Shown here: positions 8,719 to 31,557 of the stretch, piece after piece
How the letters are laid out: each line of letters opens with the position of its first letter
Position numbering within the stretch: position 1 is the stretch's first letter
Virus record (IMG/VR): IMGVR_UViG_3300042350_004528
Coordinates: 124,001-188,000 of that record
Length of the DNA stretch: 64,000 nucleotides
Reading direction: 5' to 3' (one strand)
DNA from: a virus
Notes under the pieces: generated by a model
Told to the model about the DNA's origin: nothing
The model's database searches: none
The model's input: the letters and a program-made list of their open reading frames with translations, nothing else
Translations under genes and position numbers: made by a program

Positions 8719-9563
8719 TATTGATGGTATTTTTGTTTATAAAAATTTAAGAGATGTTCCTTGTCTTGTTTAAATGATTCCGTTATCAACTTTTTATTAT
8801 CCTTTGGTAAAAAATAATATTTTTGGCCTAGAGATTCAATTAGTTTAACAGCTGTTGTTAAACAAATATCAACATCAAGTATAGAAACATATTCACGTTT
8901 AGAGTGCATATTATAGTAACCAACAGAATAATTTACACAAGAAAAGTCATACAACGATTTTAACGCAGAAACATCTGTATACGGATGATAACCAAGACTT
9001 TTTATACCATACCCAGGTAAATTTGATTCAAAAATGGGATTAATTTTATCAAAAAATTCGCTATCGACAGCAAATAATCTAATACCATCAGAATAATGGC
9101 TCACCCAGTTATTAAATGGTGCATCAAATTGTATTGCATATCCCACATTTTCAAAAAATTCTGAGTCGGATAAATATGAACCTAAACAACCAACCTCTTC
9201 TGAAACAAAAAAAGCTGCTTTAATATTTTCAATACGATCTAATAATTCTAGACAAACGAATACACCAGCTTTATTATCCCCACCAATACCAGTTTGTTCA
9301 CCATATTTATTAATTGCTGTTAGTATAAAGTTATCCTCATGAACCGTAAACTCTTCCAAAGGATGTACGGTGTCAATATGTGCAACAACACAAGGAAAAT
9401 ACTCAGCATTACCCTTTACAGCGTAAATATTACCATATTTATCAACATAGTTCGGAATATTGCGTTCATTTAGTGCATTTACAATATAATCCCTCATTCT
9501 ATCTTCAGCACCATATACAGTTGGATTAGACAAGGTTTCAATTAGTCTATTTATATTAATCAT
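8718..9563 (-). CDS. M20/M42-type metallopeptidase (peptidase T-like)
   Basis: 281 residues from the ATG at 9563; a longer frame exists but would run through the upstream lysozyme gene. Metal-ligand motifs of the M20 family are in order: VAHIDTVHP (His62, Asp64), GGDNKAGV (Asp96), SEEVGCLGS (catalytic Glu122/ligand Glu123), QFDAP (Asp147) and HSKREYV (His220). This fits a di-zinc aminopeptidase or tripeptidase. The start overlaps the stop of the transglycosylase gene by 8 bases, so the two are co-translated. A peptidase in a lysis cassette is unusual; it could trim peptidoglycan stem peptides or free peptides. No signal peptide is seen. Confidence 0.8.
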   Translation of the reverse strand: MININRLIETLSNPTVYGAEDRMRDYIVNALNERNIPNYVDKYGNIYAVKGNAEYFPCVVAHIDTVHPLEEFTVHEDNFILTAINKYGEQTGIGGDNKAGVFVCLELLDRIENIKAAFFVSEEVGCLGSYLSDSEFFENVGYAIQFDAPFNNWVSHYSDGIRLFAVDSEFFDKINPIFESNLPGYGIKSLGYHPYTDVSALKSLYDFSCVNYSVGYYNMHSKREYVSILDVDICLTTAVKLIESLGQKYYFLPKDNKKLITESFKQDKEHLLNFYKQKYHQ

Positions 9564-10092
9564 AAGAAAATTCGTTTTCAGCTTCAAAATTAACGATGCT
9601 ACTGGCATATCCGTTAACAACTGGTTTTCCCGTATTATACGCACCCAATGCAAGTTGCCATGACCCATATTTCTTTTTAAGATGGGATAATATACGCATA
9701 CTTAATTCAACATTAAGTTCTAAATTATTTAACAAATCAGTTTTTGTTACAGAGAAGTCAGAAAAACTATTTGCTGTTGGCACTTGGATTTGCATGGCGC
9801 CATAAGCATTTGCTGATGATGTTAACCTTGGATTATATCTCCAATGAAAAGGCCCTCTATAACCCGTTTCATGATTAGCAACACCAAATGCAATATCGGC
9901 TGGTACATTATATTGTTTTGAATATTTTACAATATAATAATAAATTTGAATAGACGGGGGAGCATCTTGTGATATCTCCCCCAATTTGTCTATTGATTTT
10001 TCAATCTTCTTTGTTTCCGCATACCAACCTAAAAAAAGTGTCAGCATTAATACAGATACAAACAAAACAATAAGTTTACTTAAAAATTTCAT
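9556..10092 (-). CDS. Membrane-anchored lytic transglycosylase (endolysin)
   Basis: 178 residues. Residues 5-24 are a hydrophobic signal-anchor (LIVLFVSVLMLTLFLGW), followed by a charged linker and an SLT-type domain: NHETGYRGPF with catalytic Glu75, NAYGAMQIQVP (96-105) and LALGAYNTGK (148-156). These are the ES/GLMQI/AYN motif positions of soluble lytic transglycosylases. It would cut glycan strands in the periplasm. The signal-anchor suggests export by the host Sec route (SAR-like). It ends in an 8-base overlap with the peptidase gene and starts 6 bases after the small membrane-protein gene. Confidence 0.85.
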   Translation of the reverse strand: MKFLSKLIVLFVSVLMLTLFLGWYAETKKIEKSIDKLGEISQDAPPSIQIYYYIVKYSKQYNVPADIAFGVANHETGYRGPFHWRYNPRLTSSANAYGAMQIQVPTANSFSDFSVTKTDLLNNLELNVELSMRILSHLKKKYGSWQLALGAYNTGKPVVNGYASSIVNFEAENEFSYD

Positions 10093-10544: not shown

Positions 10545-12686
10545 TTAACTAAGCGCCTGATTTACAGCATCAATTACTGTACCAATTTCAATGGTTTTAG
10601 TACATTCAAACATCCTTTCTGTGTTTTTGTGTTCTGGACACCATTCCCAATCACCAGGATTTAACCAGTGTCTGTTAAAACACCCAGAGCATATTGAAGG
10701 TGAATCATTAAAGACTCTAATACAATCACTAAACTCTGTATAAGGATAACTAAAACCAGAAATCATTATAGTTTTAGTACCCAGGGCCCAAGAAACCCAA
10801 CTTAAACCACTACCAACCCCAATGAATAAATCAGCGTTTAATATGTCGGTAAACCTATCTTGTATTGGATAGTCACCAGTTTTATCGATAACACCCGTTA
10901 ATGTCCCACCTAATTTAGAATCGTGCCAAGCGTCACCTAATTTTTCGTTAGTCAACATCAACACTTTATATCCAATAGAGTTTAAATAATCAATTATAGC
11001 TTGCCAGCCGCCTGGTTTATTCCAATATTTTGCGTGAGCTGACGCATGCGGTGCTATCACCGCGTATTTTTCGTTTATATTCCTCTCTTTTTTAAGAACA
11101 TCGATTATCGGTTTAACCTCAATAGGATCAACCCCCAATATGGATGATGCAGTTTCTTGTAAACTTTTTTCTCTAAAATTAATTGGATTTTTATTATAAT
11201 TTATTTTTGAGTCATCGTAATACCAACCAATTGTGTACATAGCATATAAATCGTATACTGCTTCACCAGGTTTTACAAATTTTAAATTAGGGTATGTTTT
11301 TTCGAACCAATCGTTTTTAAAAGTCGATACAACAACTTCACATTCATATTTTTTCCTAAATTCTTCGACAATTGGAAACCAAGCAAGTGTATCACCAATT
11401 GCACTGGACTCTAGCGCTACATAAACTTTTTTACCCTTTAAATCAAATAAGTGTTCTGAGAATAAAAACCCATCCCGATATACTTTTATATGCCATTTAA
11501 CGTTAAATTCTTTACTCGCTTTACACCAACAATTATTTTCTATTTTTGTGGTGTATTCGACTTTATTTGTTTCTGAATTAATAAATTCAACCGTATATTC
11601 TTCTTTATTATTACCTAATATTTCAACTTTTGGGCCATTTATAAAAGTATAAATAACTTTGTTTTCATTTATAACTTTATTTAATCGTCTTATGGGCGTT
11701 TCTTCGTAAATCCTAATTAAATTATCTTTCATGTCGTTTTTATTTTTTAATATTTCATTGTATATTTTTATTAGTTTTTTTGTTAAATTTTTAAATGAGT
11801 GAGCTTTCGCTGTCTTAAAACTCATATCGGCCATAGTTGTATAGTTGTTAATGACATAATTTAACCCATCAACAATTTGTTTTACATCACGCTCTATTCG
11901 ATACATTCCAGGTAATTCATTTCCTGGCTCAAATGTCGCGATAACGGGTAACCCACAAGCCATTGCCTCAAGTAGTGTTAAATTTGGGTGTCCAGCTTCT
12001 AGTATTGACGGATGTAAAAATATTGTATGTTTTTGGTAGGTATCTAAAAGTTGCTCTTCGTTTAAATCATATAATATTGTTAGTTTATTATATTCTTGAT
12101 TAAAACTGTTAAAAAAATTTTTGTTATTGGAAGGGCCAACAATTGTTATTGGTAAATCTAAAATTTTAGCTGCGTTAATCGCATATGAAAATCCTTTTCT
12201 ATCAAACCCTTGGTCATTGGCAAATCCATTATTTGCTACACATAACAATTTATGCCCGTAAGTCCTTTTTTGTGGGTCTGGTTTAAAAAAATCAGTATTA
12301 ACCGCATGCTCCAAATACCTCAGCTTTGGGTGATTATTAAAATAACCCAATAAAAATTTTGCTGGTACAAATGAAATTAAAGATTTATCGATAGCTTCTA
12401 AATTTTCTTTGTAAACATGAGAATCTTTTCCATAAACATATACATGGTGATCATGACAAGTAAATACATAATCAATACCTCTTTGTTTACCTTCTAGTGC
12501 TAAATTTGCAACATGTTGATGTACCACATCATAATTTTCTTTAACAACATCATTTAAATACTTTATTTCACTTTTGTGGCCAAATTCATTTGAGTTACAA
12601 TGATATTCCCATATGATTTTTTCAACCGCACCCCAACCGTTAGGTGGTATTGGAAGCAAACCAACTGTTACTTGACAAATTTTCAT
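10545..12686 (-). CDS. Fused GT4 glycosyltransferase and BAHT/TibC-type O-heptosyltransferase
   Basis: 713 residues in two modules. Residues 1-315 are a GT4, GT-B fold glycosyltransferase with HQHV at 56-59, a FDRKGF loop and EAGHPNLTLLEAMACGLPV (230-248). Residues ~340-713 match the bacterial autotransporter heptosyltransferase family (TibC, Aah): SSAIGDTLAWFP (428-439), VIAPHASAHAKYWN (543-556), ILNADLFIGVGSGLSW (615-630), and the four cysteines C666-x2-C669-x13-C683-x11-C695 that bind iron in TibC. Those enzymes O-glycosylate Ser/Thr of repetitive secreted proteins. The nearby gene for a 5316-residue Thr/Ser/Gly repeat protein is the obvious substrate candidate. It overlaps the upstream gene by 4 bases (ATGA). 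Confidence 0.85.
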   Translation of the reverse strand: MKICQVTVGLLPIPPNGWGAVEKIIWEYHCNSNEFGHKSEIKYLNDVVKENYDVVHQHVANLALEGKQRGIDYVFTCHDHHVYVYGKDSHVYKENLEAIDKSLISFVPAKFLLGYFNNHPKLRYLEHAVNTDFFKPDPQKRTYGHKLLCVANNGFANDQGFDRKGFSYAINAAKILDLPITIVGPSNNKNFFNSFNQEYNKLTILYDLNEEQLLDTYQKHTIFLHPSILEAGHPNLTLLEAMACGLPVIATFEPGNELPGMYRIERDVKQIVDGLNYVINNYTTMADMSFKTAKAHSFKNLTKKLIKIYNEILKNKNDMKDNLIRIYEETPIRRLNKVINENKVIYTFINGPKVEILGNNKEEYTVEFINSETNKVEYTTKIENNCWCKASKEFNVKWHIKVYRDGFLFSEHLFDLKGKKVYVALESSAIGDTLAWFPIVEEFRKKYECEVVVSTFKNDWFEKTYPNLKFVKPGEAVYDLYAMYTIGWYYDDSKINYNKNPINFREKSLQETASSILGVDPIEVKPIIDVLKKERNINEKYAVIAPHASAHAKYWNKPGGWQAIIDYLNSIGYKVLMLTNEKLGDAWHDSKLGGTLTGVIDKTGDYPIQDRFTDILNADLFIGVGSGLSWVSWALGTKTIMISGFSYPYTEFSDCIRVFNDSPSICSGCFNRHWLNPGDWEWCPEHKNTERMFECTKTIEIGTVIDAVNQALS

Positions 12687-13384
12687 TGATTGAAATATAT
12701 TTTGTTATAAATTGATTCTATTTTTCTATCCTGGCCAAAAGATCTAATGTCTAGTATCTGGGCATTTTTTAATTTTAACCAAAAATTTTCTTTCGTTTCA
12801 TTAATATAATAACCACCTTCTTTTTTAAATAAATAAAGATAAAATGGTAGTTTACACAAACTAAAATAAACAGATATATTATCAAAATTAATATGACGTT
12901 CCTTTGAGTATGCGAGTTCCCTTAATATGGAAAGCATATCCATATCATCTCTTATAATTTCGTAGTTTGGAAATATATCAGATAAACCAAACGTTGCTGA
13001 TATTTTTTTAAAATCATATTTAAAATCTAAATCTAGATTTAAAGCAAAATGATAATCAATTTTAAAATCATCATGTTGTGATTCATAAAAATTGGTTGGG
13101 TATTCAAAATGTTTTATCGGTGTAAAAAAATTGTAATACTCGTCAACTGGAGTACCTAAATAATCATTTGGGTTGAATTTATAATTGTTACCGTGGTATT
13201 TTATTAAAACAACATCTTGAGTAAATTTTTGTAGCTTTAATAAACTAACTATACTGTCTACTTTTTCAATATTGTCTGGAAAAACAAAAATAATTTTTTT
13301 ATTTTTTAATTTATATAAATGTGAGCATATTGGTAATATGTAAGCTATGTCGGTTACCGTTCCTAAAAGTGTTACTGCAATCAT
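12683..13384 (-). CDS. Hypothetical glycosylation-cluster protein (Rossmann-like N-terminus)
   Basis: 233 residues starting MIAVTLLGTVTDIAYILPICSHLYKLKNKKIIFVFPD, a beta-alpha-beta beginning like GT-B enzymes that compute on NDP-sugars, but no complete family signature follows. The rest is rich in Asp, Phe and Tyr. Flanked by two glycosyltransferase genes on the same strand and overlapping the downstream one by 4 bases, so a role in sugar supply or transfer is likely by context; the exact activity is unknown. Confidence 0.65.
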   Translation of the reverse strand: MIAVTLLGTVTDIAYILPICSHLYKLKNKKIIFVFPDNIEKVDSIVSLLKLQKFTQDVVLIKYHGNNYKFNPNDYLGTPVDEYYNFFTPIKHFEYPTNFYESQHDDFKIDYHFALNLDLDFKYDFKKISATFGLSDIFPNYEIIRDDMDMLSILRELAYSKERHINFDNISVYFSLCKLPFYLYLFKKEGGYYINETKENFWLKLKNAQILDIRSFGQDRKIESIYNKIYFNQ

Positions 13385-13412
13385 TTTTTTTAATAGTTAA
13401 TTTAGTAAATTT

Positions 13413-15428
13413 TTATTTTAATTCTATAAATCCGTTTTTATTTAAATTATTATAAAAATAATCTGGTGTTAAAATAATTTCTTTTACCTCAATAATTTGT
13501 TCTTTTTTTTCGTCTTTTTTATCAAAAAACAAACCTTTTATTTTATACGTTTTATTTTGAAAATCTATAATTTTATACCATCTATTATTACCATTTACGT
13601 TGATAGTTTCAATAAAGTTATCATCCATGTATAAATCCAATACTCTACTGTCGGTAGCGTTATTAACACTAAACCAAATGGCAAATTTACTAGGGTTATC
13701 TTTAACCGATAGTAAAGTAAAATATTCTACTCGAGAAAAATCATACCAATAAATTGTTTTACTAACCAAATCATCAAAATCTTTTTGCTTTTCATAAAAA
13801 ACTTTATTAGATACGGGTTTTAAACCATGAAACATCATATTTTCCAAAGAATTAGTTTCAGATCCCCAATCATACATAGCTTGTGTGTATTGTTCTTCTT
13901 TAAGTATGAGTGGAAAATGGTTGATGTAAAAATCAGGTTCAATTCCCATAAACCATGTTGTAACGGTTGGCCCCTCTTGATCCCCCTCCCTTAATTGACA
14001 ATAAATTTTATAATCATTTAATTTTTTAGAAACGTAGTCTAAAAAATACCTATCTTTAATTTCATAATCATAATTTAAAAAAAATACTTTTTTAAATCCT
14101 AAATTTTTAGCTAAACAAGCCCCATTGTAATAATTTGTATAGCAAGCGGGGCCGTGGTAAATATCATTCCCATACGCCTTTAAATTTACATGTGTGTAGT
14201 ATTCAGAATAATTCCAATACGAATAAGAATAAAAGGTATGTTTAGTTAATAAATTATTTTTATCAACCACAACATAATCTGCTGTTTCTTCTAAAATCTT
14301 GGGCACGGGTATGTGAGAAGTTAATATAACTTTCCTTCCCGATTTATGGGCGGATAATATACAATTTAAGGTTACTTCAATAACCCTTTGGGTATTTGGA
14401 TATGTGGAAATAACCACTACCTCTTCACTTTCATTTAAATACTCATTATTATTATTATTATTATTATTTAATAAATTTTTAATAGTTGTGTAATTATATT
14501 CAAAGTCATCAAATTTAAGATATTTTACTTTAGAAAATTCATCAAAATAATTTTCGTAAACGGGTAAATTATAAATTAGTGTTGGCAATTCCCAAGAAAT
14601 TGCTTCACGAATAACCAAAGGCATTGTTTCTTTATCGTTTACCGTACCTTTAGATGTAAATAAAAATAAATCCATTGCGGAATAAAATTTATCAACATCG
14701 GATCTTTCACCGTGGACAATTAAATTTTTGGGGATATTATTTAATAAAGGCTCCCAATAATATTTAAAATTGTCAGCGGTGTTTCCGACAGAATGAAACA
14801 TTATTTTTTCACCCTCAAACATCCTGGCGTATTCAAAAAATTCAGCTTGGTTTTTTCTTGGTGTGAATAAACCAACATGCAATACATGTTTATATTCAGG
14901 ATCCAATCCCAACTCTTTTAAAGAATTATAGCGGTCGGGTCTTTCTTTATATTCAATTGGGTATTCAACAACCTCAGAATCTATTTTTAGATCAGACAAC
15001 ATTTTACTTTGAAATTTTGACACCAAAATAAATTTATCTGGCATAAATCTTTTTGTATTAACGTCAAACGAGGAGTCATGTGACGTTTCAAATATTTTGT
15101 ATTGTCTTTCCTTTGTGTATATTTGTTCCGCAATATTATCAGCCATAAAATATTCTGGCATCTCCTCTAAATGAACTATATCGGGATTTAATCTTTGTAT
15201 GGTTTCGATTACAAATTGCTTATCCCCACCCCACGGAATGGTTAATAAATTATCACCGATTAAATTTTTTATTCTGTTTTTTTGAACCACTAAAACACCA
15301 CCAGTCACATCATCATATTCAATAACGTATATATTATAATTGTTTTTTAATTCCTCAATCTTTTTCGTTAGATATTGGGGTAAACCACCTGTTGATAGAT
15401 GTGGTGCAATATACAATATTGTTTTCAT
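13413..15428 (-). CDS. Multidomain glycosyltransferase (GT4 plus second sugar-processing module)
   Basis: 671 residues. Residues 1-325: GT4 fold, beginning MKTILYIAPHLSTGGLPQYLTK (a typical acceptor-binding loop), with HVGLFTPRKNQAEFFEYA near 190-207 and KETMPLVIREAISWELPTLIYN near 275-295. A run of eight Asn joins it to a second alpha/beta module (about 335-530) with STYPNTQRV, HTHVNLKAYGND and KVFFLNYDYEI, which looks like a GT2- or capsule-type enzyme but is not clearly assignable. The last ~110 residues are beta-rich (FAIWFSVNNATDSRVLDLYMDD), perhaps carbohydrate-binding. First gene of the minus-strand set after the giant fibre gene. Confidence 0.75.
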   Translation of the reverse strand: MKTILYIAPHLSTGGLPQYLTKKIEELKNNYNIYVIEYDDVTGGVLVVQKNRIKNLIGDNLLTIPWGGDKQFVIETIQRLNPDIVHLEEMPEYFMADNIAEQIYTKERQYKIFETSHDSSFDVNTKRFMPDKFILVSKFQSKMLSDLKIDSEVVEYPIEYKERPDRYNSLKELGLDPEYKHVLHVGLFTPRKNQAEFFEYARMFEGEKIMFHSVGNTADNFKYYWEPLLNNIPKNLIVHGERSDVDKFYSAMDLFLFTSKGTVNDKETMPLVIREAISWELPTLIYNLPVYENYFDEFSKVKYLKFDDFEYNYTTIKNLLNNNNNNNNEYLNESEEVVVISTYPNTQRVIEVTLNCILSAHKSGRKVILTSHIPVPKILEETADYVVVDKNNLLTKHTFYSYSYWNYSEYYTHVNLKAYGNDIYHGPACYTNYYNGACLAKNLGFKKVFFLNYDYEIKDRYFLDYVSKKLNDYKIYCQLREGDQEGPTVTTWFMGIEPDFYINHFPLILKEEQYTQAMYDWGSETNSLENMMFHGLKPVSNKVFYEKQKDFDDLVSKTIYWYDFSRVEYFTLLSVKDNPSKFAIWFSVNNATDSRVLDLYMDDNFIETINVNGNNRWYKIIDFQNKTYKIKGLFFDKKDEKKEQIIEVKEIILTPDYFYNNLNKNGFIELK
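14445..14468. repeat. ATT trinucleotide microsatellite (8 units) in a GT gene
   Basis: Eight uninterrupted ATT units, read as Asn8 on the minus strand, at the joint between two domains. Slippage would change linker length without shifting frame. Confidence 0.95.
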
Positions 15429-15475
15429 ACTTTTTTTTATTTTTAATAATAAGTAAAATTTATTTAAAAATAAAC

Positions 15476-15503
15476 AAAAAAGCCTAGAATATCTAGGCTT
15501 TTT
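15476..15503 (-). terminator. Terminator after the giant repeat gene
   Basis: AAAAGCCTAGA / TCTAGGCTTTT hairpin with ATA loop; the minus strand continues in TTTTTTG. It separates the giant gene from the glycosyltransferase genes. Confidence 0.85.
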
Positions 15504-15606
15504 CGCGTTTAAATTCGATAATAGTTAGATTTAAATTAATCTTACCTCATCGCCTGTTAGCTCAATGCGCGGATTGAGACTGTCTTTTGTGCCAAAGCAC
15601 AATTTC
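15504..15606 (-). other. Structured 3' untranslated region of the giant gene
   Basis: 103 non-coding bases with two strong hairpins, CTCAAT-GCGCGG-ATTGAG (around 15562-15579) and TTGTGC-CAAA-GCACAA (15587-15602), and a weaker one over the stop codon. Their order is faintly tRNA-like, but arm lengths and T-arm do not fit a tRNA. Confidence 0.4.
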
Positions 15607-18600
15607 TTATGAAATTCTATGTCCATAGAAATAAGTCATTACTGTACCACCACCACCAACAATATCAGCATCACAACTTGCGAAGGTTCCTACGATAAGT
15701 CCATTACCAGTCCCGCGAACCCTAACCTCAATTTCTTGATCTGTTCCACCATCATTATAAACTACCGTATCAATATTCACTGTTTCAGGACAATCTGTTG
15801 AGGTTATATCGTAAATTGCAACTTTTAAATATGTTGCTGTTGTTACGTTGTAAAATGCAACGCTTGTATATGCCGTCCAATTGGCAAAACCAATTTGAGC
15901 TTGAATTTCCCAGGTTTCACCTGGTTGTATAACAAATCTATAACCATTAGCCGAAACATAACCTGTTACATCGTATTGTGTGGTATCAAATTGAACTGTT
16001 GTATCAGTATTTGCGGTTAGGTTTAAATCACTCTGTGCTAATGTAATTTGGAAATAATTACCGCCACCAGCTGATACACCTGATGTACCTGAAGATCCAG
16101 CTGCGCCCGTACCACCCGAAACACCTGATGTACCAGAAGAACCAGAAGTCCCTCTCGCCCCTGATGTACCAGAAGTTCCTGATGTACCAGAAGTTCCTGA
16201 AGAACCAGAAGTCCCTCTCGCCCCTGATGTACCAGAAGTTCCTGAAGAACCAGAAGTCCCTCTCGCCCCTGATGTACCAGAAGTTCCAGAAGTTCCTGAT
16301 GTACCACCACCACCACCACCACCTATGGTCGATACGGCTCGTAATGTTAAAAAATTATTTGTGACGTTGTCTACGGCTAAAACGTGAGTTGCGGCATTAT
16401 CAATTGGCGCAGTGACCTCAGTTTTACCAGCATTACCCCCCGAAAGTATGGTTTTAAACCCACTTACCGCCCCTACGTACACCCAATCAGTTAAAGCTGT
16501 AAGATCATTCCATACGAGATATGGGGCTTTTTGGCTTATAGCTGTCGCAGTTACGTTACTTAAATCAAAACTTAATGTCACATCACTGACTAATTGGCCG
16601 CCACCCGCCAAACCAACTCCCGAAATAACCGAAACATACGTTCCAGCGGTACCGAGATTACCTGAAATTCCTGATGTGCCAGATGTTCCTGATGTGCCAG
16701 ATGTTCCAGATGTTCCTGAAGAACCAGATGTTCCTGAAGAACCTGAGCCCGTTGAAGTTCCACTTGTTCCGATAGCACTATTACCAGATGTACCAGCGCT
16801 ACCAGAAGTTCCTGATGTTCCGCTTAATGCTGATATACCATTTAGTCCACTCACACCAGAAGTTCCTGTCGTACCAGAAGTTCCTGAAGAACCTGATGTT
16901 CCAGATGTGGCACTCACACCTGAAGTACCTGACGTTCCATTTCTTCCCGATGTTCCGAAGGAACCAGAAGTTCCTGATGTAGCACCTGTACTCACACCTG
17001 AAGTACCTGACGTTCCATTTCTTCCTGAAGTTCCGAAGGAACCAGAAGTACCCGATGTAACACCCGTACTCACACCTGATGTTCCAGATGTACCATTTCT
17101 TCCCGATGTTCCGAAAGCACCTGAAGTACCCGATGTAACACCCGTACTCACACCTGAAGTACCTGATGTACCATCTCTTCCTGAAGTTCCCGATGTTCCT
17201 GAAGAACCATTTGTTCCTGATGTTGCAGAAACACCACTTGTGCCAGCAGTTCCGTTTATTCCTGAAGTTCCAGAAGTTCCTGAAGAACCTGATGTTCCAG
17301 ATGTGGCACTCACACCTGATGTTCCAGATGTACCATCTCTTCCTGAAGTTCCGAACGCACCAGAAGTTCCCGATGTAACACCTGTACTCACACCTGAAGT
17401 ACCTGACGTTCCATTTCTTCCTGAAGTTCCGAAAGCACCTGAAGTTCCTGATGTAACACCCGTACTCACACCTGAAGTACCTGACGTTCCATTTCTTCCT
17501 GAAGTTCCGAAAGCACCTGAAGTACCTGATGTAACACCCGTACTCACACCTGAAGTACCTGATGTACCATCTCTTCCTGAAGTTCCGAAGGAACCAGAAG
17601 TTCCCGATGTCGCGGATATTCCCGATGTACCAGCAGTTCCGTTTATTCCTGAAGTTCCAGCTGTTCCTGAAGAACCTGATGTTCCCGATGTGGCACTCAC
17701 ACCTGAAGTACCTGACGTTCCATTTCTTCCTGAGGTTCCTGAAGAACCTGAAGTTCCTGATGTAGCAGAAACACCACTTGTTCCTGATGTTCCTGAAGAA
17801 CCAGAAGTACCGCTTGTCGCAGATACTCCCGATGTTCCAGCTGTACCATTTATTCCTGAGGTTCCCGAAGAACCTGATGTTCCTGAAGTTGCACTTATTC
17901 CTGAAGTTCCAGCTGTTCCTGAAGAACCAGAAGTACCTGATGTAGCGGATACTCCCGAAGTTCCAGCAGTTCCATTTCTACCCGAGGTTCCCGAAGATCC
18001 GCTTGTACCTGATGTTGCTGATACACCTGAAGTACCAGAAGTTCCCGATGATCCATTAGTTCCACTTGTTGCAGAAACACCCGAAGTTCCAGCAGTTCCA
18101 TTTATTCCTGATGTTCCTGACGATCCACTTGTACCTGAAGTACCTGATGTTCCGCTCGAACCAGAAGTACCTGATGTAGCGGATACTCCCGATGTTCCAG
18201 CAGTTCCATTTCTACCCGCAGTTCCACTTGAACCAGAAGTACCTGATGTTGCAGATACCCCACTTGTACCTGAAGTCCCGCTTGAACCAGCAGTTCCGCT
18301 TGTTGCTGATATACCTGAAGTTCCAGCAGTTCCATTTATACCTGAAGTTCCTGACGATCCGCTTGTACCAGAAGTACCAGCAGTTCCACTTGAACCAGAA
18401 GTTCCTGATGTTGCTGATATACCTGAAGTCCCAGCAGTTCCATTTCTACCCGAGGTTCCTGAAGAACCTGATGTTCCTGATGTTGCAGATACACCAGAAG
18501 TACCTGATGTTCCACTCGAACCAGAAGTTCCTGATGTAGCGGATACTCCCGATGTTCCAGCGGTTCCATTTATACCTGAAGTTCCTGACGATCCACTTGT

Positions 18601-21600
18601 ACCAGAAGTACCAGCAGTTCCACTTGAACCAGAAGTTCCTGATGTTGCTGATATACCTGAAGTACCAGCAGTTCCATTTCTACCCGAGGTTCCTGAAGAA
18701 CCTGATGTTCCACTTGTTGCTGATATACCTGATGTTCCACTTGAACCACTTGTTCCTGATGTTGCAGAAACACCACTTGTACCAGCAGTTCCATTTCTTC
18801 CTGAAGTACCTGAAGATCCACTTGTACCTGATGTTGCGGAAACGCCTGAGGTTCCCGAGGTTCCCGAAGAACCTGATGTACCACTTGTTGCAGAAACACC
18901 TGAAGTTCCGTTTATTCCTGATGTTCCCGATGAACCACTCGTTCCAGCAGTTCCAGAAGTTCCCGAAGATCCACTTGTACCTGATGTTGCAGATACACCT
19001 GAAGTTCCAGCAGTTCCATTTCTACCTGAAGTTCCACTTGAACCTGATGTACCTGATGTGGCAGATACTCCACTTGTTCCTGAAGAACCTGATGTTCCAC
19101 TTGTTGCTGATACACCTGAAGTTCCAGCAGTTCCATTTATTCCTGAGGTTCCTGAAGATCCACTTGTACCTGATGTCGCAGATACCCCACTTGTTCCTGA
19201 TGTACCTGAAGAACCAGAAGTCCCCGATGTCGCAGATACACCTGAAGTTCCAGCAGTTCCATTTCTTCCCGATGTACCTGAAGAACCAGAAGTTCCTGAT
19301 GTTGCAGATACCCCACTTGTTCCTGATGTTCCACTTGAACCTGATGTTCCACTTGTTGCTGATATCCCAGAGGTACCATTTATTCCCGATGTTCCACTTG
19401 AACCTGATGTTCCACTTGTTGCTGATATCCCAGAGGTACCAGCAGTTCCTGAAGAACCACTTGTACCGCTTGTCGCAGACACACCACTTGTTCCAGCAGT
19501 TCCGTTTCTACCTGAAGTTCCTGAAGAACCAGAAGTTCCTGATGTTGCAGATATCCCTGATGTTCCCGAGGTTCCTGAAGAACCTGATGTTCCACTTGTT
19601 GCTGATATCCCAGAGGTACCAGCAGTTCCGTTTATTCCAGAGGTTCCTGAAGAACCTGATGTTCCTGATGTTGCTGACACACCACTTGTTCCCGCAGTTC
19701 CCGAAGATCCACTTGTACCTGATGTTGCAGAAACACCTGAGGTTCCAGCAGTTCCATTTCTACCCGCAGTTCCCGAAGAACCCGATGTTCCTGATGTTGC
19801 AGATATCCCTGATGTTCCCGAGGTTCCTGAAGAACCAGAAGTTCCTGATGTTGCAGAAACACCTGAAGTACCAGCAGTTCCATTTATACCTGAAGTTCCT
19901 GACGATCCACTTGTACCAGAAGTACCAGCAGTTCCTGAAGAACCTGATGTACCACTTGTTGCAGAAACACCTGAGGTTCCAGCAGTTCCATTTCTACCCG
20001 AGGTTCCTGAAGAACCTGATGTACCTGATGTTGCAGACACTCCTGATGTACCAGCAGTTCCCGAAGAACCTGATGTTCCTGATGTCGCAGATACACCTGA
20101 AGTTCCAGCAGTTCCATTTATTCCTGAAGTTCCTGAAGAACCATTTGTTCCTGATGTCGCAGAAACACCACTTGTCCCTGATGTACCTGAAGAACCAGAA
20201 GTTCCTGATGTTGCTGATATTCCTGATGTACCAGCGGTTCCATTTCTACCTGAAGTACCTGAAGAACCACTTGTTCCTGATGTTGCTGAAACTCCCGAAG
20301 TACCAGAAGTTCCAGAGGAACCTGATGTTCCTGAAGTTGCACTTATTCCTGAAGTACCAGCCGTACCGTTTATTCCCGAAGTACCTGACGATCCACTTGT
20401 ACCAGAAGTACCTGATGTTCCGCTCGAACCAGAAGTTCCTGATGTTGCGGATACACCTGAAGTTCCAGCAGTTCCGTTTATTCCAGAGGTTCCTGAAGAA
20501 CCTGATGTTCCTGATGTTGCAGATATTCCACTTGTACCAGCTGTACCTGAAGAACCTGAAGTTCCGCTTGTTGCTGATATCCCTGAAGTCCCAGCAGTTC
20601 CATTTCTACCTGAGGTACCACTTGAACCACTCGTTCCCGATGTAGCGGATACACCACTTGTCCCTGATGTACCTGAAGAACCAGCAGTTCCACTTGTTGC
20701 AGAAACACCTGAAGTTCCAGCAGTTCCATTTATTCCTGAAGTTCCTGAAGAACCTGAAGTTCCTGAAGTTGCACTTATTCCTGAAGTTCCAGCTGTTCCT
20801 GAAGAACCTGATGTTCCTGATGTGGCACTTATTCCTGAAGTTCCAGCAGTTCCATTTCTACCCGAGGTTCCTGAAGATCCAGAAGTACCTGATGTTGCAG
20901 AAACACCTGATGTACCTGAAGTACCTGAAGAACCACTTGTTCCCGATGTTGCAGAAACACCTGATGTACCAGCGGTTCCATTTATTCCTGATGTTCCCGA
21001 TGAACCAGAAGTTCCGCTTGTTGCGGATGTACCTGATGTTCCAGCAGTACCACTTGAACCAGAAGTACCTGATGTTGCAGAAACACCTGATGTACCTGAG
21101 GTTCCATTTCTACCAGCTGTTCCTGAAGAACCCGATGTCCCACTTGTAGCGGATACACCACTTGTTCCAGCTGTACCTGAAGAACCTGATGTACCTGATG
21201 TCGCAGATATACCTGATGTTCCAGCAGTTCCATTTCTACCAGCTGTTCCTGAAGAACCCGATGTCCCACTTGTAGCGGATACTCCACTTGTTCCTGATGT
21301 TCCTGAAGAACCAGAAGTTCCTGATGTTGCTGATGCACCTGAAGTTCCAGCGGTACCATTTATTCCTGAAGTTCCCGATGATCCATTTGTACCAGCCGTA
21401 CCAGAAGTGCCAGAAGATCCACTTGTTCCGCTTGTTGCGGATATACCTGATGTTCCAGCAGTTCCATTTATACCTGAAGTTCCAGAAGAACCAGAAGTTC
21501 CGCTTGTTGCAGATATTCCTGATGTTCCAGCGGTACCATTAATACCTGATGTACCAGCTGTTCCTGAAGAACCAGAAGTTCCGCTTGTTGCAGATATTCC

Positions 21601-24600
21601 TGAAGTCCCAGCAGTTCCGTTTCTACCAGAAGTACCTGAAGAACCAGAAGTACCTGATGTTGCAGAAACACCTGATGTTCCCGAGGTTCCTGAAGAACCA
21701 GAAGTACCTGATGTGGCGGATACACCTGAAGTCCCAGCAGTTCCATTTATTCCTGATGTTCCACTTGAACCTGATGTACCTGATGTCGCAGAAACACCAC
21801 TTGTTCCTGATGTTCCACTTGAACCAGAAGTACCCGATGTCGCAGACACACCTGATGTTGCTGATACCCCCGATGTACCTGATGTTCCGCTCGATCCACT
21901 TGTTCCTGATGTTGCAGAAACACCACTTGTTCCAGCTGTACCTGAAGAACCTGAAGAACCTGATGTTCCTGATGTTGCAGATATTCCACTTGTACCAGCA
22001 GTTCCATTTCTACCTGAGGTACCACTTGAACCACTCGTTCCCGATGTTGCGGATACTCCACTTGTTCCTGATGTTCCCGAAGAACCAGAAGTTCCTGATG
22101 TTGCTGAAACACCTGATGTACCAGAAGTTCCATTTATTCCTGAAGTTCCCGATGAACCACTTGTACCAGCAGTACCTGAGGTTCCTGAAGAACCAGAAGT
22201 ACCTGATGTTGCGGATATTCCTGAAGTTCCAGCAGTTCCATTTATTCCAGCTGTTCCTGAAGAACCATTTGTTCCTGATGTCGCAGATACACCTGAAGTC
22301 CCCGCAGTTCCACTTGAACCAGAAGTTCCCGATGTTGCTGATATCCCTGAAGTTCCAGCAGTTCCGTTTCTTCCTGAGGTTCCTGAAGAGCCCGATGTTC
22401 CTGATGTAGCAGAAACACCACTTGTTCCCGCAGTTCCCGAAGAACCCGATGTTCCTGAGGTTGCTGAAACACCCGATGTTCCAGCTGTACCATTTATTCC
22501 AGATGTTCCTGAAGAACCTGATGTTCCTGAAGTTGCTGATACACCCGATGTTCCACTTGTTCCCGAAGAACCTGATGTTCCTGAGGTTGCTGAAACACCC
22601 GATGTTCCAGCTGTACCATTTATTCCTGAGGTTCCTGAAGAACCTGATGTCCCACTTGTAGCGGACACACCACTTGTTCCCGCAGTTCCTGAAGAACCAG
22701 AAGTACCTGATGTTGCTGAAACACCCGATGTTCCAGCTGTACCATTTATTCCTGAAGTTCCAGAGGAACCTGATGTTCCTGAAGTTGCTGATATTCCTGA
22801 AGTACCAGCTGTTCCTGAAGAACCAGAAGTTCCGCTTGTTGCGGATATTCCTGAAGTTCCAGCAGTTCCGTTTCTTCCTGAGGTTCCTGAAGAACCAGAA
22901 GTACCTGATGTTGCCGATACTCCCGATGTTCCTGAGGTTCCTGAAGAACCTGATGTTCCTGATGTAGCAGAAACACCTGATGTACCAGCTGTACCATTTA
23001 TCCCCGAAGTTCCCGCAGTTCCCGAAGAACCTGATGTTCCTGATGTTGCAGAAACACCACTTGTTCCAGCTGTACCTGAAGAACCTGATGTTCCACTTGT
23101 TGCCGATATTCCTGATGTACCAGAAGTTCCATTTCTTCCTGAAGTACCTGAAGAACCACTTGTTCCTGATGTTGCTGAAACACCACTTGTTCCAGCTGTA
23201 CCTGAAGAACCAGATGTACCTGATGTTGCGGAAACACCTGATGTTCCAGCGGTTCCGTTTATTCCTGATGTTCCACTTGAACCAGAAGTACCTGATGTTG
23301 CAGATACCCCACTTGTACCTGAAGTCCCGCTTGAACCAGCAGTTCCGCTTGTTGCTGATATACCTGAAGTTCCAGCAGTTCCATTTCTACCTGATGTTCC
23401 ACTTGAACCCGATGTACCTGATGTTGCAGATACTCCTGAAGTTCCAGCAGTACCACTTGAACCTGATGTACCTGATGTGGCAGACACACCACTTGTACCA
23501 GCAGTTCCATTTCTTCCTGATGTTCCACTTGAACCTGATGTTCCTGATGTTGCAGACACTCCTGATGTACCTGAGGTTCCTGAAGATCCACTTGTACCTG
23601 ATGTTGCTGATATCCCCGAAGTTCCAGCAGTTCCATTTATTCCTGATGTACCTGAGGTTCCACTTGAACCCGATGTTGCAGACACACCTGATGTGCCTGA
23701 GGTTCCCGAAGAACCTGATGTACCTGATGTCGCAGATATACCTGATGTTCCAGCAGTTCCATTTATTCCTGAAGTACCTGAAGATCCGTTTGTACCTGAT
23801 GTTGCGGAAACACCTGAGGTTCCCGAGGTTCCCGAAGAACCCGATGTTCCTGATGTGGCAGACACACCACTTGTACCAGCAGTTCCATTTCTTCCCGATG
23901 TACCTGAAGTTCCGCTTGAACCAGCAGTACCGCTTGTCGCAGATACTCCACTTGTACCAGCAGTTCCGTTTATTCCTGATGTTCCAGCAGTACCACTTGA
24001 ACCTGATGTACCTGATGTTGCAGACACTCCTGATGTTCCAGCAGTACCATTTATTCCTGAAGTACCCGAAGATCCGTTTGTACCAGCAGTCCCTGAAGTC
24101 CCCGAAGATCCACTTGTACCTGATGTCGCTGATGCCCCTGAAGTTCCAGCGGTTCCGTTTATTCCTGATGTTCCACTTGAACCAGATGTTCCACTTGTTG
24201 CCGATATCCCTGATGTACCAGCGGTTCCATTTCTACCTGAAGTACCACTTGAACCTGATGTACCTGATGTTGCAGAAACACCTGATGTACCTGAAGTTCC
24301 ATTTATCCCTGATGTGCCTGAAGTACCGCTTGAACCTGATGTTCCTGATGTTGCAGACACTCCTGAAGTTCCTGATGTTCCCGAAGAACCAGAAGTTCCT
24401 GATGTTGCAGACACTCCTGAAGTTCCTGATGTTCCATTTATTCCTGATGTTCCACTTGAACCTGATGTACCTGATGTGGCAGATACTCCTGAAGTTCCCG
24501 AAGTACCTGAAGAACCAGATGTACCTGATGTTGCGGAAACACCTGATGTTCCAGCGGTTCCGTTTATTCCTGATGTTCCACTTGAACCAGATGTTCCTGA

Positions 24601-27600
24601 TGTGGCGGATACACCCGAAGTTCCCGAAGTACCTGAAGAACCAGAAGTTCCTGATGTCGCAGATACCCCACTTGTACCAGCGGTTCCATTTATTCCTGAT
24701 GTTCCACTTGAACCTGATGTTCCTGATGTGGCAGATACTCCACTTGTACCAGAGGTACCACTTGAACCCGATGTACCTGATGTTGCAGATACTCCACTTG
24801 TACCAGCAGTTCCGTTTATTCCTGAAGTACCTGAAGATCCACTTGTACCTGATGTTGCTGATATACCTGAAGTTCCAGCAGTTCCATTTCTACCAGCTGT
24901 ACCTGAAGATCCTGATGTTCCACTTGTCGCAGATACCCCACTTGTACCAGCGGTTCCATTTATTCCTGATGTTCCAGAAGAACCTGATGTTCCTGATGTG
25001 GCAGATACACCCGAAGTTCCTGAAGTTCCACTTGAACCCGATGTTCCTGATGTGGCAGACACACCACTTGTACCAGCAGTTCCGTTTATTCCTGATGTTC
25101 CAGCAGTACCACTTGAACCTGATGTACCTGATGTTGCAGACACACCACTTGTTCCAGCAGTTCCATTTCTACCAGCGGTTCCACTTGAACCATTTGTTCC
25201 AGATGTTGCAGATACCCCTGAAGTTCCTGATGTTCCGTTTATTCCCGAAGTTCCTGAAGAACCTGATGTTCCTGATGTTGCGGAAACACCTGAAGTTCCC
25301 GATGTTCCATTTCTACCTGATGTTCCCGAAGAACCTGAGGTTCCTGAAGAACCATTTGTTCCCGATGTTCCACTTATTGCTGATATACCATTTAATCCAT
25401 CAATACCCGATGTACCAGTTGAACCACTTGTTCCTGATGTTGCAGATACACCTGATGTTCCAGCACTCCCACTTCTACCTGATGTTCCCGAAGAACCTGA
25501 GGTTCCTGAAGAACCATTTGTTCCCGATGTTCCACTTATTGCTGATATACCATTTAATCCATCAATACCCGATGTACCAGTTGAACCAGAAGTTCCACTT
25601 GTCGCAGACACTCCTGATGTTCCAGCAGTACCATTTCTTCCTGAGGTTCCCGAAGAACCTGAGGTTCCACTTGTTGCAGATACTCCACTTGAACCTGATG
25701 TACCTGATGTCGCAGATACTCCCGATGTACCAGAGGTACCCGATGTTCCTGAAGAACCAGAAGTTCCAGATGTTGCAGAAACACCTGATGTTCCCGATGT
25801 TCCTGAAGAACCTGATGTTCCTGATGTGGCAGACACACCACTTGTACCAGCAGTTCCATTTATTCCTGATGTTCCCGAAGAACCAGATGTACCTGATGTT
25901 GCCGATATACCTGAAGTTCCAGCGGTACCATTTATTCCAGATGTTCCATTGGAACCACTTGTTCCCGATGTCGCAGACACACCTGAAGTCCCAGCGGTTC
26001 CATTTCTCCCCGATGTTCCACTTGAACCTGATGTTCCACTTGTAGCGGATACTCCCGATGTACCAGCAGTACCGTTTATTCCTGAAGTACCTGAAGAACC
26101 ATTTGTTCCAGATGTGGCAGATACTCCACTTGAACCAGCAGTACCGCTTGTCGCAGATACTCCACTTGTTCCCGAGGTTCCTGAAGACCCAGACGTTCCT
26201 GATGTTGCAGATACACCTGATGTTCCAGCACTCCCACTTCTACCTGATGTTCCCGAAGAACCTGATGTTCCTGATGTCGCAGACACACCTGAAGTTCCAG
26301 AGGTTCCGTTTATTCCCGATGTACCTGAAGAACCAGATGTCCCTGATGTTCCACTTATCGCTGATGTACCAGCAGTACCGTTTATTCCTGAAGTACCTGA
26401 AGAACCATTTGTTCCAGATGTGGCAGACACACCTGAAGTTCCTGATGTTCCATTTATTCCTGATGTACCTGATGAACCACTTGTACCAGCAGTTCCACTT
26501 ATCGCTGATGTACCAGCAGTACCATTTATTCCCGAAGTTCCTGATGACCCAGAAGTTCCTGATGTTGCCGATATTCCCGAAGTTCCTGATGTTCCATTTA
26601 TTCCTGATGTACCTGATGAACCACTTGTTCCTGATGTCGCAGACACACCACTTGTACCAGCAGTTCCATTTGAACCTGATGTTCCTGATGTTGCTGATAT
26701 CCCAGAAGTACCTGATATCCCAGAAGTACCTGATGAACCACTTGTACCAGCAGTTCCATTTCTTCCTGAGGTTCCGCTTGAGCCAGAAGTTCCTGAAGTT
26801 CCACTCTCACCTGAAGTTCCCGAAGAACCTGAAGTTCCTGAAGAACCACTTGTACCGCTTGAACCAGAAGTTCCCGAAGAACCTGAAGTATTCGATTCAC
26901 CTGATGTACCAGCACCACCTGATGTTCCAGCAGTACCACCTGTTCCCGAGGTTCCAGCCTGGGATGTACTTGTTCCAGATGTACCAGCACCACCTGATGT
27001 TCCAGAAGTACCACCTGTTCCCGAGGTTCCAGCCTGGGATGTACTTGTTCCAGATGTACCAGCACCACCTGATGTTCCAGCAGTACCACCTGTTCCCGAG
27101 GTTCCACTTATTGCTGATATACCATTTAATCCATCAATACCCGATGTACCAGTTGAACCAGAAGTTCCTGATGTTGCTGATATCCCCGAAGTTCCAGCAG
27201 TTCCATTTCTACCTGATGTTCCACTTGAACCAGAAGTTCCTGATGTTGCTGATATCCCTGATGTACCAGAGGTACCCGATGTTCCTGAAGAACCATTTGT
27301 TCCGCTTGTCGCCGATACCCCTGATGTTCCCGAAGAACCCGAAGTTCCAGCAGTTCCTGAAGAACCATTTGTTCCCGATGTCGCAGATATCCCACTTGTT
27401 CCCGATGTTCCATTTATTCCTGATGTACCTGAAGATCCACTTGAACCTGATGTACCTGATGTGGCAGATACACCTGATGTTCCAGCGGTTCCATTTATTC
27501 CTGAAGTCCCCGAAGATCCACTTGTTCCAGCAGTACCTGATGTACCCGAAGAACCCGATGTTCCCGAAGATCCGCTAGATCCTGAAGTCCCCGAACTTCC

Positions 27601-30600
27601 GCTTGAGCCAGAAGTACCTGATGTTCCTGAACTCCCCGAACTTCCGCTTGAGCCAGAAGTACCTGATGTTCCTGATGTTGCGGAAACACCTGATGTACCA
27701 GCGGTTCCATTTCTTCCTGAAGTTCCGCTTGAACCAGAAGTTCCAGATGTTGCAGAAACACCTGAAGTTCCATTTAATCCTGATGTTCCCGAAGAACCTG
27801 ATGTTCCCGAAGAACCTGATGTTCCCGAAGAACCTGATGTACCAGTAGTTCCTGATGTACCTGAAGAACCTGAGGTTCCAGAAGAACCTGATGTTCCCGA
27901 AGAACCTGACGTACCTGATGTCGCAGATATTCCAGAAGTACCTGAAGTTCCAGATGATCCACTTTCACCCGATGTTCCCGAGGTTCCAGACGTTGCGGAA
28001 CCACCACTCTCACCCGCTAGTCCATTAACACCCGAAGTACCTGAAGAACCTGATGTTCCTGATGTTGCGGAAATGCCTGAAGTACCACTTGTACCGTTTG
28101 AGCCTGATGTTCCAGAAGTACCTGAAGACCCAGACGTTCCCGAAGAACCACTTGTCCCATTTGTACCCGATTCACCTGAAGTACCTGAAGACCCAGACGT
28201 TCCTGAAGTTCCATTTGTTCCTGATTTACCTGAAGACCCAGACGTTCCTGAAGTTCCACTTTCGCCAGAAGTTCCTGAAGTTCCATTTGTTCCTGATTCA
28301 CCTGATGTTCCCGAAGAACCACTTGTACCACTTGTTCCAGAAGAACCATTTGTACCATTTGTTCCAGATGTTCCACTTTCACCAGAAGTTCCCGAAGTTC
28401 CACTTTCACCCGAAGTTCCTGAAGAACCTGATGTACCTGATGTTGCAGATATCCCTGATGTTCCCGAAGAACCATTTGTACCACTTTCACCTGAACTTCC
28501 ACTTTCACCCGAACTTCCACTTGTGCCAGAAGTTCCCGAACTTCCACTTGAACCTGATGTACCTGAACTTCCACTTTCACCCGAAGTACCGTTTGTACCA
28601 CCCTCACCCGAAGTTCCATTTGTTCCTGAAGTTCCCGAAGTTCCACTTATTGCTGATATACCATTTAATCCATCAATACCCGATGTACCAGTTGAACCAG
28701 AAGTTCCTGATGTTGCTGATATACCTGAAGTTCCAGCAGTTCCATTTATTCCCGATGTTCCACTTGAACCAGAAGTTCCCGAAGAACCATTTGTACCAGA
28801 AGTTCCCGAAGAACCATTTGTACCACTTTCACCTGAAGTACCGTTTGTACCCGACTCACCAGATGTCCCTGATGTTCCCGATGTACCTGAAGAACCAGAT
28901 GTTCCTGATGTTCCTGAAGAACCATTTGTACCGCTCTCACCTGAACTTCCGCTTGAACCAGAAGAACCTGATGTTCCACTTGAGCCAGAAGAACCTGATG
29001 TTCCACTTGAGCCAAATGTTCCTGAGGTTCCAGAAGAACCATTTGTACCACTCTCACCTGAACTTCCACTCTCACCCGAAGTTCCTGAGGTTCCAGAAGA
29101 ACCTGATGTTCCACTTGAACCAGAAGTACCCGATGTTCCCGAAGAACCATTTGTACCACTTTCACCTGAAGTACCACTTTCACCCGAACTTCCACTTGAA
29201 CCAGAAGTACCTGATGTTCCTGAAGAACCAGAAGTACCTGATGTTCCTGAAGTACCGTTTGTACCACTTTCACCTGAAGTACCACTTTCACCCGATGTTC
29301 CTGAGGTTCCTGATGTACCTGAGGAACCACTTGTTCCAGAAGTTCCCGATGTTCCCGAAGAACCATTTGTACCACTTTCACCTGAAGTACCACTTTCACC
29401 TGAAGAACCCGAAGTTCCTGATGTACCTGAGGAACCACTTGTACCTGAAGTTCCAGATGATCCACTTTCACCCGATGTGCCTGAAGTTCCAGAAGTTGCG
29501 GAACCACCACTCTCACCCGCTAGTCCATTAACACCCGAAGTTCCTGAAGAACCAGAAGTTCCCGAAGAACCCGATGTCCCTGAAGTTGCTGAAAAACCTG
29601 AAGTACCGTTTGTACCCGACTCACCCGAAGTTCCCGAAGTTCCCGAAGAACCTGATGTTCCCGATGTTCCCGAAGAACCCGATGTCCCTGAAGTTGCTGA
29701 AAAACCTGAAGTACCATTTGTGCCCGACTCACCCGAAGTTCCTGAAGTTCCTGAAGAACCCGATGTCCCAGAAGTTCCTGAAGAACCCGATGTTCCTGAA
29801 GTTCCACTTTCACCTGAAGTACCGTTTGTACCCGACTCACCCGATGTTCCCGATGTTCCCGATGTACCTGAGGAACCACTTGTTCCCGAAGAACCCGAAG
29901 AACCTGATGTTCCTGAAGTTCCATTTGAACCTGATGTTCCTGAAGTTCCACTTTCACCCGAAGTTCCACTTGAGCCAGAAGTACCTGAGGAACCACTTGT
30001 TCCCGAAGAACCTGAAGAACCTGATGTACCTGATGTTCCTGAAGAACCATTTGTACCACTCTCACCTGAAGTACCACTCTCACCCGAAGAACCTGATGTT
30101 CCTGATGTTCCAGATGATCCACTTGTACCTGATGTTCCTGATGTTCCCGAAGAACCATTTGTCCCTGACTCACCTGAAGTACCGTTTGTTCCCGACTCAC
30201 CAGATGTCCCCGATGTCCCCGATGTACCTGATGAACCAGAAGTTCCCGAAGAACCAGATGTCCCTGATGTTCCGTTTGTTCCAGATTCACCATTTGTACC
30301 ATTTTCACCAGACGTTCCTGAAGTTCCTGAAGTTCCGCTTGTTCCTGATGTTCCTGAAGAACCAGAAGTACCTGATGTTCCGTTTGTTCCAGATTCACCA
30401 TTTGTACCATTTTCACCAGACGTTCCTGAAGTTCCTGAAGTTCCGCTTGTTCCTGATGTTCCTGAAGAACCAGACGTTCCTGAAGTTCCTGAAGTTCCGC
30501 TTGTTCCAGATTCACCATTTGTACCATTTTCACCCGAAGTTCCTGAAGAACCAGAAGTTCCCGAAGAACCAGAAGTTCCCGAAGTTCCACTTGTACCCGA

Positions 30601-31557
30601 TGTACCAGACGTACCGTTTGTCCCACTTTCACCCGATGTTCCTGATGTTCCTGTTGTCCCCGATGTTCCTGATGTGCCAGATGTGCTTGGCAACACCATA
30701 TATTTGTCAATTCTTTTTGCTACGATTATAACAGAGGGCGCCGCTGGATAATTAACCCCAGCCCCTAAAGCTGTTATTTGTACATGTTGATTTGTGGATA
30801 AAAATACAAACTCAACACAATCATTAGCTTGTAAATTAAATTGATATGCAACAAATGGTAATTGATATGCGCCATTTCCGCTTAATGTTATAGTTGATGT
30901 TGTCCTGGGCTCGTCATTGCCATTAATTCTTGCCCAAATTATAATATCAGTACCGTTTGCATTTGATGCGGCTTCAATTTGAGCTGAATATCCTATTTCA
31001 TAAACACCAGCATTATCTACGGTAATTTGTGAATTATTTTGTACACTAATGCCATTTGCAATTTCGGTTGTATTATATTCCCAAACGGTTGGTATACTTG
31101 AACCACTGACTACTTGTGTGGTTGAATCACTAAACGACCCATAATAATTATCTCCAGTCCACGAAGTACCAGATGAACCTGCTGTTCCCGAAGTACCAGT
31201 AGTTCCTGATGTACCTGAAGAACCAGAAGTTCCCGACTCACCAGATGTCCCCGATGTACCTGAGTAACCAGATGTTCCTGAGGTACTAGCGGCGGAATAT
31301 GTGAATTGACCCGTTAGCGGATCAAATGTTACGACATATTGCGGATTTAATTCTTGAGTTAATTCCTGATTAACCCAATTACTACCATTATAAACTAAAA
31401 TACTACCAGCTGTTGCGCCAGTTGTTATTATTACATCAGTTAGGTCATCCAGACCTAAGTTCTCAATTGCATTTTTTAGATTATCAAAATTCGCGTCAAG
31501 TTCGCCGAATGTTAAAGGTCTACCTAGTGCGCATCTTAAATATATTGTAACCGCCAT
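15607..31557 (-). CDS. Giant 5316-residue collagen-like Gly-Thr-Ser repeat fibre
   Basis: One uninterrupted ORF of 15.95 kb. N-terminal domain (residues 1-89, [26 protein letters not shown]) is the short attachment type common in phage fibres. After a short GTS block comes a beta-rich TNF/C1q-like domain (~134-290: [25 protein letters not shown]). Then ~4680 residues of Gly-X-Y triplets with X/Y drawn from Thr, Ser, Asn, Glu, Ala, Val, Ile ([18 protein letters not shown]), nearly no Pro. A small domain (near 4970-5075), another GTS block, and a C-terminal C1q/TNF-like domain (~5165-5316: [14 protein letters not shown]) follow. End domains of this type trimerise collagen-like stalks. A late-type promoter motif precedes it. 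Virion fibre or decoration is inferred; the substrate of the adjacent glycosyltransferases is the likely reading. Confidence 0.9.
16651..30690 (-). repeat. 14-kb Gly-X-Y coding repeat array
   Basis: About 1560 triplets in three zones by reading direction: an N-proximal zone with GES and GTN triplets (about 27900-30690); a middle zone (about 17600-27900) with a higher-order period marked by GVSATS and GINGTAGTS or GRNGTAGTS; and a C-proximal zone (16651-17600) with [20 protein letters not shown]. Longer exact sub-repeats are scattered, for example the [17 protein letters not shown] block near 25375, 25540, 27110 and 28650, the [13 protein letters not shown] block near 28000 and 29500, and a 75-bp tandem ([14 protein letters not shown]) at about 26907-27105. 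Confidence 0.95.

Follow-up and report, generated by a model that had tools for sequence, protein, structure and literature searches.

Glycosylation of phage virion proteins is rarely documented, and the glycosyltransferases (GTs) that phages encode are usually taken to modify DNA or lipopolysaccharide (LPS). In the mycobacteriophage system, the C-termini of capsid and tail-tube proteins are reportedly the sites concerned, served by other enzymes, with no bacterial autotransporter heptosyltransferase (BAHT) and no dedicated repeat fibre. Gram-positive bacteria have serine-rich repeat loci (Fap1/GspB) in which the gene for a giant Ser/Thr repeat protein neighbours those for a protein O-GT that starts the glycan and for GTs that lengthen it; these loci lack a BAHT, GtfA/GtfB initiate with N-acetylglucosamine (GlcNAc), and secretion is by an accessory Sec system. 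Mycobacteriophage GTs are described as glycosylating virion proteins in the accounts that PMC12619734 and PMC11256854 give of Freeman et al. 2023, and the XacN1 jumbo phage encodes GTs and has glycoproteins detected in its virion (PMC5852040). Here, we analyse a stretch of 64,000 nt (the window; bases 124001-188000) from the 298,833-bp IMG/VR record IMGVR_UViG_3300042350_004528 (G000), which is that of a T4-like phage. The window holds a gene cassette in which a giant fibre of Gly-Thr/Ser-Ser (G-T/S-S) repeats is followed by GTs that include a BAHT.

Comparison of these genes with their relatives suggests that these phages sugar-coat their own fibres before release. We estimate a probability of about 75% that the cassette is a phage-encoded, cytoplasmic O-glycosylation system dedicated to the phage's own repeat fibre. 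In the direction of transcription, on the minus strand, the order is the 5,316-aa fibre, a 671-aa GT, a 233-aa protein and a 713-aa GT4-BAHT fusion:

15607-31557, minus strand: giant collagen-like G-T/S-S repeat fibre, 5,316 aa, a single open frame
13413-15428, minus strand: 671-aa GT ('GT664' family) with an N-terminal GT4 match (PF00534, 2.9e-11)
12683-13384, minus strand: 233-aa protein, no family match
10545-12686, minus strand: GT4-BAHT fusion, 713 aa (PF00534 and TIGR04414)
11697-12686, minus strand: GT4 domain, fusion residues 1-330 (PF00534), a separate 315-aa gene in most relatives
10545-11663, minus strand: GTS-type BAHT domain, fusion residues 342-713 (TIGR04414, TibC alignment)

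A BAHT fused to a GT4 glycosyltransferase

The GT4 match of the 713-aa protein covers residues 162-256 (PF00534, 9e-11), while residues 342-710 match the curated model TIGR04414, 'autotransporter strand-loop-strand O-heptosyltransferase', at 304.9 bits (E 7e-91), above its cut-off of 200 bits. The best PDB match was TibC (4RAP, 1e-58 as a single sequence), reaching 9e-139 with a profile of phage relatives and TibC itself. Neither the BAHT nor the 671-aa GT matched a PHROG family. When the residues are numbered on TibC by alignment (PMC4358343), the catalytic base Asp432 corresponds to Asp110, the donor contacts Lys553, Arg611 and Trp630 to Lys230, Arg286 and Trp305, and Cys666, Cys669, Cys683 and Cys695, the predicted four-Cys iron finger, to Cys 339, 342, 358 and 370. 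Asp110, Lys230, Trp305 and the four Cys are kept in 64/64 aligned phage relatives and Arg286 in 63/64. TibC Thr226 is replaced by Ser549 in the fusion, and Phe355 by Trp in all GTS-type rows of the alignment.

A scan of IMG/VR found BAHT relatives encoded by at least 126 viral contigs, of which 80 (52-69% identical) were kept. The recurrent gene order is a GTSG fibre, a 650-900-aa GT (GT664), a 315-aa GT4, a 400-aa BAHT and then the tail sheath (PF04984). In 62 of 72 cases the BAHT comes straight after the GT4, their frames overlapping; the GT4 in turn comes straight after the GT664 gene in 39 of 42, mostly with a 4-base overlap. GT4 and BAHT are fused in the window phage and in the relatives L006 and L007; other phages have BAHT frames of ~700-1,450 aa, and Microcystis phage Mel-JY01 encodes a GT4-FkbM-BAHT fusion.

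A preliminary description of this DNA had proposed a BAHT fused to a GT4 domain, with Cys at 666, 669, 683 and 695, and both points are borne out by the matches above; its open reading frame positions were exact when the window was checked. The fusion is present but not unique, since there are several others and most relatives have overlapping separate genes. The BAHT had also been placed directly beside the fibre; it lies in the same cluster, but two genes (12683-13384 and 13413-15428) intervene.

A giant fibre of G-T/S-S repeats

The fibre is composed of 29.7% Ser (1,581 residues), 28.2% Gly and 20.2% Thr (1,074 residues), with Gly chiefly at each third position, as in G-X-Y repeats. Non-repeat islands occupy residues ~1-90, 140-300, 4960-5100 and 5160-5316. 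Both ends match PHROG tail-fibre and collagen-like tail families, and the protein matches Pfam Collagen (2e-8). With its G-X-Y repeats and fibre-like ends, the product of 15607-31557 is a collagen-like phage tail fibre, and this GTSG fibre, rather than an autotransporter adhesin, is the partner of the BAHT.

The G+C content climbs from ~32% to 47.5% over the fibre gene (window 16001-30000), probably due to the GGN-ACN-TCN codons and not to foreign origin. An antisense open reading frame of 4,779 aa (16412-30751, plus strand) was rejected as a gene, being a mechanical shadow of the G-T-S codon repeat. Classification of the fibres by an N-terminal motif was likewise rejected; their N-termini are diverse and no class emerged.

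Enzymes and fibres change together in phage relatives

With the BAHT as bait, a GTSG fibre was found in 27/28 IMG/VR loci having at least 5.5 kb upstream. We also used two baits that are blind to the BAHT, gp23 and the tail sheath. The sheath contigs that extend at least 9 kb upstream divided into 10 with enzymes and fibre and 10 with neither; the fibre was seen locally in nine of the former and by a record-level GTSG pattern in one. Across the gp23- and sheath-bait records, GTSG was present in 10/10 with a BAHT versus 2/25 without (Fisher 3.6e-7, relatedness ignored). The sheath tree requires at least six changes of BAHT state (gain or loss), and the fibre changed alongside in 4/4 supported independent pairs, a number at which the sign test alone is not significant (p 0.125). 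In relatives lacking the BAHT, the same site is occupied by unrelated fibres and is free of cassette GTs. Adjacency is not essential to the pairing: in the 735-kb phage LR756501 the BAHT lies at 580 kb, ~470 kb from a GTSG-rich stretch that starts near 103 kb and takes in most of the 216 GTSG pattern hits (103-109 kb among the matches listed).

A separate BAHT clade linked to the repeat in bacteria

We scanned 84,980 species genomes for BAHTs and built trees, in which two BAHT clades appear, each with support of 100: TibC-type (Burkholderiaceae, Selenomonadales, Lentisphaerota and others) and GTS-type (phages, Methylococcaceae, some gammaproteobacteria and Schekmanbacteria), the latter set off by a long branch. 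Runs of (GTSG)n occur in 9/11 bacterial GTS-type loci versus 0/~62 TibC-type loci; the exceptions are L259 and L271, while L257 has runs but is off the tree, its reading frame having been found only in part. The bacterial GTS-type BAHTs adjoin short genes for secreted or lipoprotein (GTSG)n products, eight of them within 1.1 kb (distances of 8, 22, 53, 110, 127, 172 and 1,091 bp). The loci with a small (GTSG)n protein beside a GTS-type BAHT are as follows:

L255-L258, L261, L270, L278 and L286

A rough composition filter placed a large AIDA-like adhesin, rich in G/S/T/N, no more than 4 kb away in 32 of the ~62 TibC-type loci. The bacterial (GTSG)n proteins and the phage fibres have nothing but the repeat in common, and the repeat is therefore the likely acceptor of GTS-type BAHTs. 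Because its clade is separate from that of TibC and its partner is different, we assign the phage enzyme, on sequence grounds, to a new BAHT sub-family and not to the autotransporter enzymes. The earlier proposal that the phage decorates its own fibre thus gains strong comparative support from the recurrent operon, the joint gain and loss, the pair in the 735-kb phage and the bacterial relatives, although the interpretation as a whole is partly supported.

Points against the proposal

Several observations weigh against a cassette dedicated to the fibre. Among GTSG contigs from a scan that started with the fibre, 19 of the 35 measuring at least 40 kb lack a BAHT (16/35 have it), as do 3 of the 10 measuring at least 100 kb (7/10 have it). 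Three phages (G049, G063 and G075) have sheath-proximal GTSG fibres with no cassette GT adjoining. A BAHT without any GTSG pattern hit occurs in the 636-kb phage LR756504, and the GTS-type relatives L263/L264, L266 and L271 have no GTSG nearby. The donor pocket differs from that of TibC at residue 300, a stereoselectivity residue (Pro in TibC, Ser294 in Aah) whose place is taken by Gly625 in the fusion. To our knowledge, cyanobacteria are not known for heptose LPS, yet a Microcystis phage carries the BAHT. The TibC thumb tip, Phe265/Val266, which is required for the active dodecamer (PMC4358343), is Asp585/Ala586 in the fusion, with Asp in 60/64 phage rows and a variable residue after it. The thumb tip also varies among bacterial BAHTs, hence we did not treat it as family-defining, rejected the change as proof of a different oligomer and draw no conclusion on oligomeric state.

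Since GTSG fibres without a BAHT are common, the repeat does not need BAHT modification. The association is one-way: a GTSG protein nearly always accompanies the enzymes, while many GTSG proteins have no BAHT to go with them. The fibre-first scan, in which GTSG repeats appear as a module in many T4-like virion proteins, led us to reject a one-to-one rule. The survey of relatives that the preliminary description had called for gives a split answer, in that the enzymes track the fibre (the 10 versus 10 sheath contigs) but the fibres often lack the BAHT; the pattern named there as refuting did not appear, since fibre and enzymes do occur together in relatives, if one-sidedly. In one phage (G060; L454, G060:C1:40000-59999), a 1,543-aa GTSG fibre lies downstream of other apparent sugar-enzyme genes with no BAHT. 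Possibly, a different initiating enzyme serves the same repeat there.

The donor sugar

A heptose-like first unit is plausible because the residues equivalent to TibC Asp110, Lys230, Arg286 and Trp305 are conserved. Outside the window, G000 encodes a 140-aa nucleotidyltransferase (97732-98058; L086:1471-1893) for which HldE domain II is the top NCBIfam model (1.5e-25, under the equivalog cut-off). A gene for a WbuC-like cupin follows it, and the two could supply or edit a sugar nucleotide. The HldE-like gene was not found in the 14 other phage records (1/15 has one), and GmhA had no match in G000. Gram-negative hosts normally make the adenosine diphosphate (ADP)-activated heptose, and if the enzyme uses heptose at all, it is probably the host that supplies it as ADP-heptose.

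The alternative that survives best retains fibre glycosylation and changes the donor: a BAHT-like enzyme would use a non-heptose sugar (for example another ADP- or uridine diphosphate (UDP)-sugar), the heptose label having been carried over from TibC. We regard this as possible, though doubtful. It would account for the long branch between the clades and for position 300, which is Gly in 68/71 phage and 8/9 bacterial GTS-type rows and Ser in 56/63 TibC-type rows. The adenine contact Arg286 varies in bacterial GTS-type members, and the scarcity of HldE-like genes, the missing gmhA match and the cyanobacterial host point the same way. Heptose is favoured by the invariance of Lys230 and Trp305, and near invariance of Arg286, in phages, by the nucleotidyltransferase gene of G000, for all that its match is below the cut-off, and by the ADP-heptose normally present in Gram-negative hosts. 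That the sugar is a heptose is the least certain step of our interpretation.

Other roles for the enzymes

The GTs might instead remodel the host surface (LPS or O-antigen) to block superinfection, travelling with the fibre because it uses the altered receptor. The host-recognition region of pelagimyophages has GT clusters that have been interpreted as surface remodelling (PMC7029224), and a fibre and a receptor modification could be co-inherited. However, protein Ser is the target of TIGR04414 enzymes, the cassette enzymes examined include no membrane-embedded and no lipid-carrier enzyme, and BAHT and GTSG protein are found together even when their genes are distant, as in the 735-kb phage. 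Bacterial BAHTs of the same clade stand beside small GTSG proteins, with no LPS-locus arrangement among the bacterial loci listed. We therefore consider surface remodelling improbable. Already disfavoured, and very improbable, is a shared hot spot where a tail-fibre region gathers GTs and fibres independently and common ancestry and synteny link them: the region before the sheath is variable and related phages are not independent data points, but the fibre follows the BAHT in all four supported pairs among at least six state changes, the association persists without adjacency, and it arises independently in bacteria.

Other genes of the cassette and its surroundings

The C-terminal half of the GT664 protein is conserved across its family in the alignment and gave no match in a PDB sequence search. 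Longer relatives (~880-920 aa) have an extra C-terminal extension resembling a GT domain, and the family is found in 53/85 BAHT loci. The 233-aa protein was otherwise found only in the close relative L007, and a PDB search with it gave no match. The cassette enzymes examined contain no transmembrane-like stretch, as expected for cytoplasmic protein glycosylation. Optional neighbours in relatives are FkbM methyltransferases, a NodU-like carbamoyltransferase, an epimerase and a further GT. Three contigs binned as Flavobacteriales, Winogradskyella and Bacteroidetes (L253, L254 and L265) are phage contigs carrying the cassette, a weak hint at Bacteroidota hosts, or mis-binning.

The T4-like assignment relies on gp23 inside the window; the tail sheath was looked for, and seen, in relatives. 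The flanking features are:

7074-8660, plus strand: gp23 major capsid protein (PF07068, 1e-74; phrog_138)
8718-10092, minus strand: M42-like peptidase and SLT transglycosylase, downstream of the BAHT, in an order retained in L006 and L007
31608-34064, minus strand: phage AAA protease ATPase of ClpA/ClpC type, a short way upstream of the fibre gene

Discussion

We infer from the comparisons above what the acceptor and donor are, that a chain is built, how the steps are ordered and what benefit follows. Once the fibre is translated, its G-X-Y repeat would receive a first sugar on Ser/Thr hydroxyls from the BAHT domain, with ADP-activated heptose as the probable donor. Extension of the glycan would then fall to the GT4 domain of the fusion and to the free-standing 671-aa GT, a chain being suggested by these extra GTs, and in relatives the FkbM methyltransferases, carbamoyltransferase, sugar epimerase and other GTs may modify it. 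Assembly of the coated fibre into virions would follow. There, the sugar may make the repeat shaft stiffer, more soluble or better protected, or it may hide the fibre surface or vary it. More broadly, we think it fairly probable that a distinct O-GT sub-family, in aquatic T4-like and giant phages and some bacteria, recognizes collagen-like (G-T/S-S)n repeats and gives giant virion fibres a coat of glycan specified by the phage, with fibre and cassette passing between phages as one unit.

If so, the BAHT family would split into two sub-families by acceptor. The comparison names an enzyme and its probable substrate, in a gene set present in many phage contigs, which makes the role of these GTs directly testable, and it provides two soluble enzymes that together may glycosylate a simple GTS repeat. 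Our literature search, whose coverage excluded subscription journals, returned no paper that pairs GTSGTSG with phage fibres and none reporting a BAHT in a phage.

Among known systems, the phage cassette resembles the Fap1/GspB loci in gene layout and differs by having a BAHT instead of GtfA/GtfB. XacN1 is likewise a jumbo phage with GTs; glycoproteins have been detected in its virion and are predicted here, and XacN1 has no enzyme-substrate link, no detected tail-fibre homologue and no reported BAHT (PMC5852040). As in the mycobacteriophages, to the extent that PMC12619734 and PMC11256854 describe them, the GTs are phage-encoded and virion proteins are the glycan carriers, here predicted. With TibC and Aah (TIGR04414; PDB 4RAP/4RB4; PMC4358343), the phage BAHT shares the curated family, the catalytic Asp, the donor Lys/Arg/Trp, the four-Cys iron finger and a gene position near a long, repetitive, Ser-rich putative substrate. 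Unlike them, it belongs to a separate, well-supported clade, is phage-encoded and fused to or overlapping a GT4, and has Gly at the stereoselectivity site, Trp for Phe355 and a non-hydrophobic thumb tip, and it is partnered by a collagen-like G-T/S-S repeat in place of a beta-helical autotransporter.

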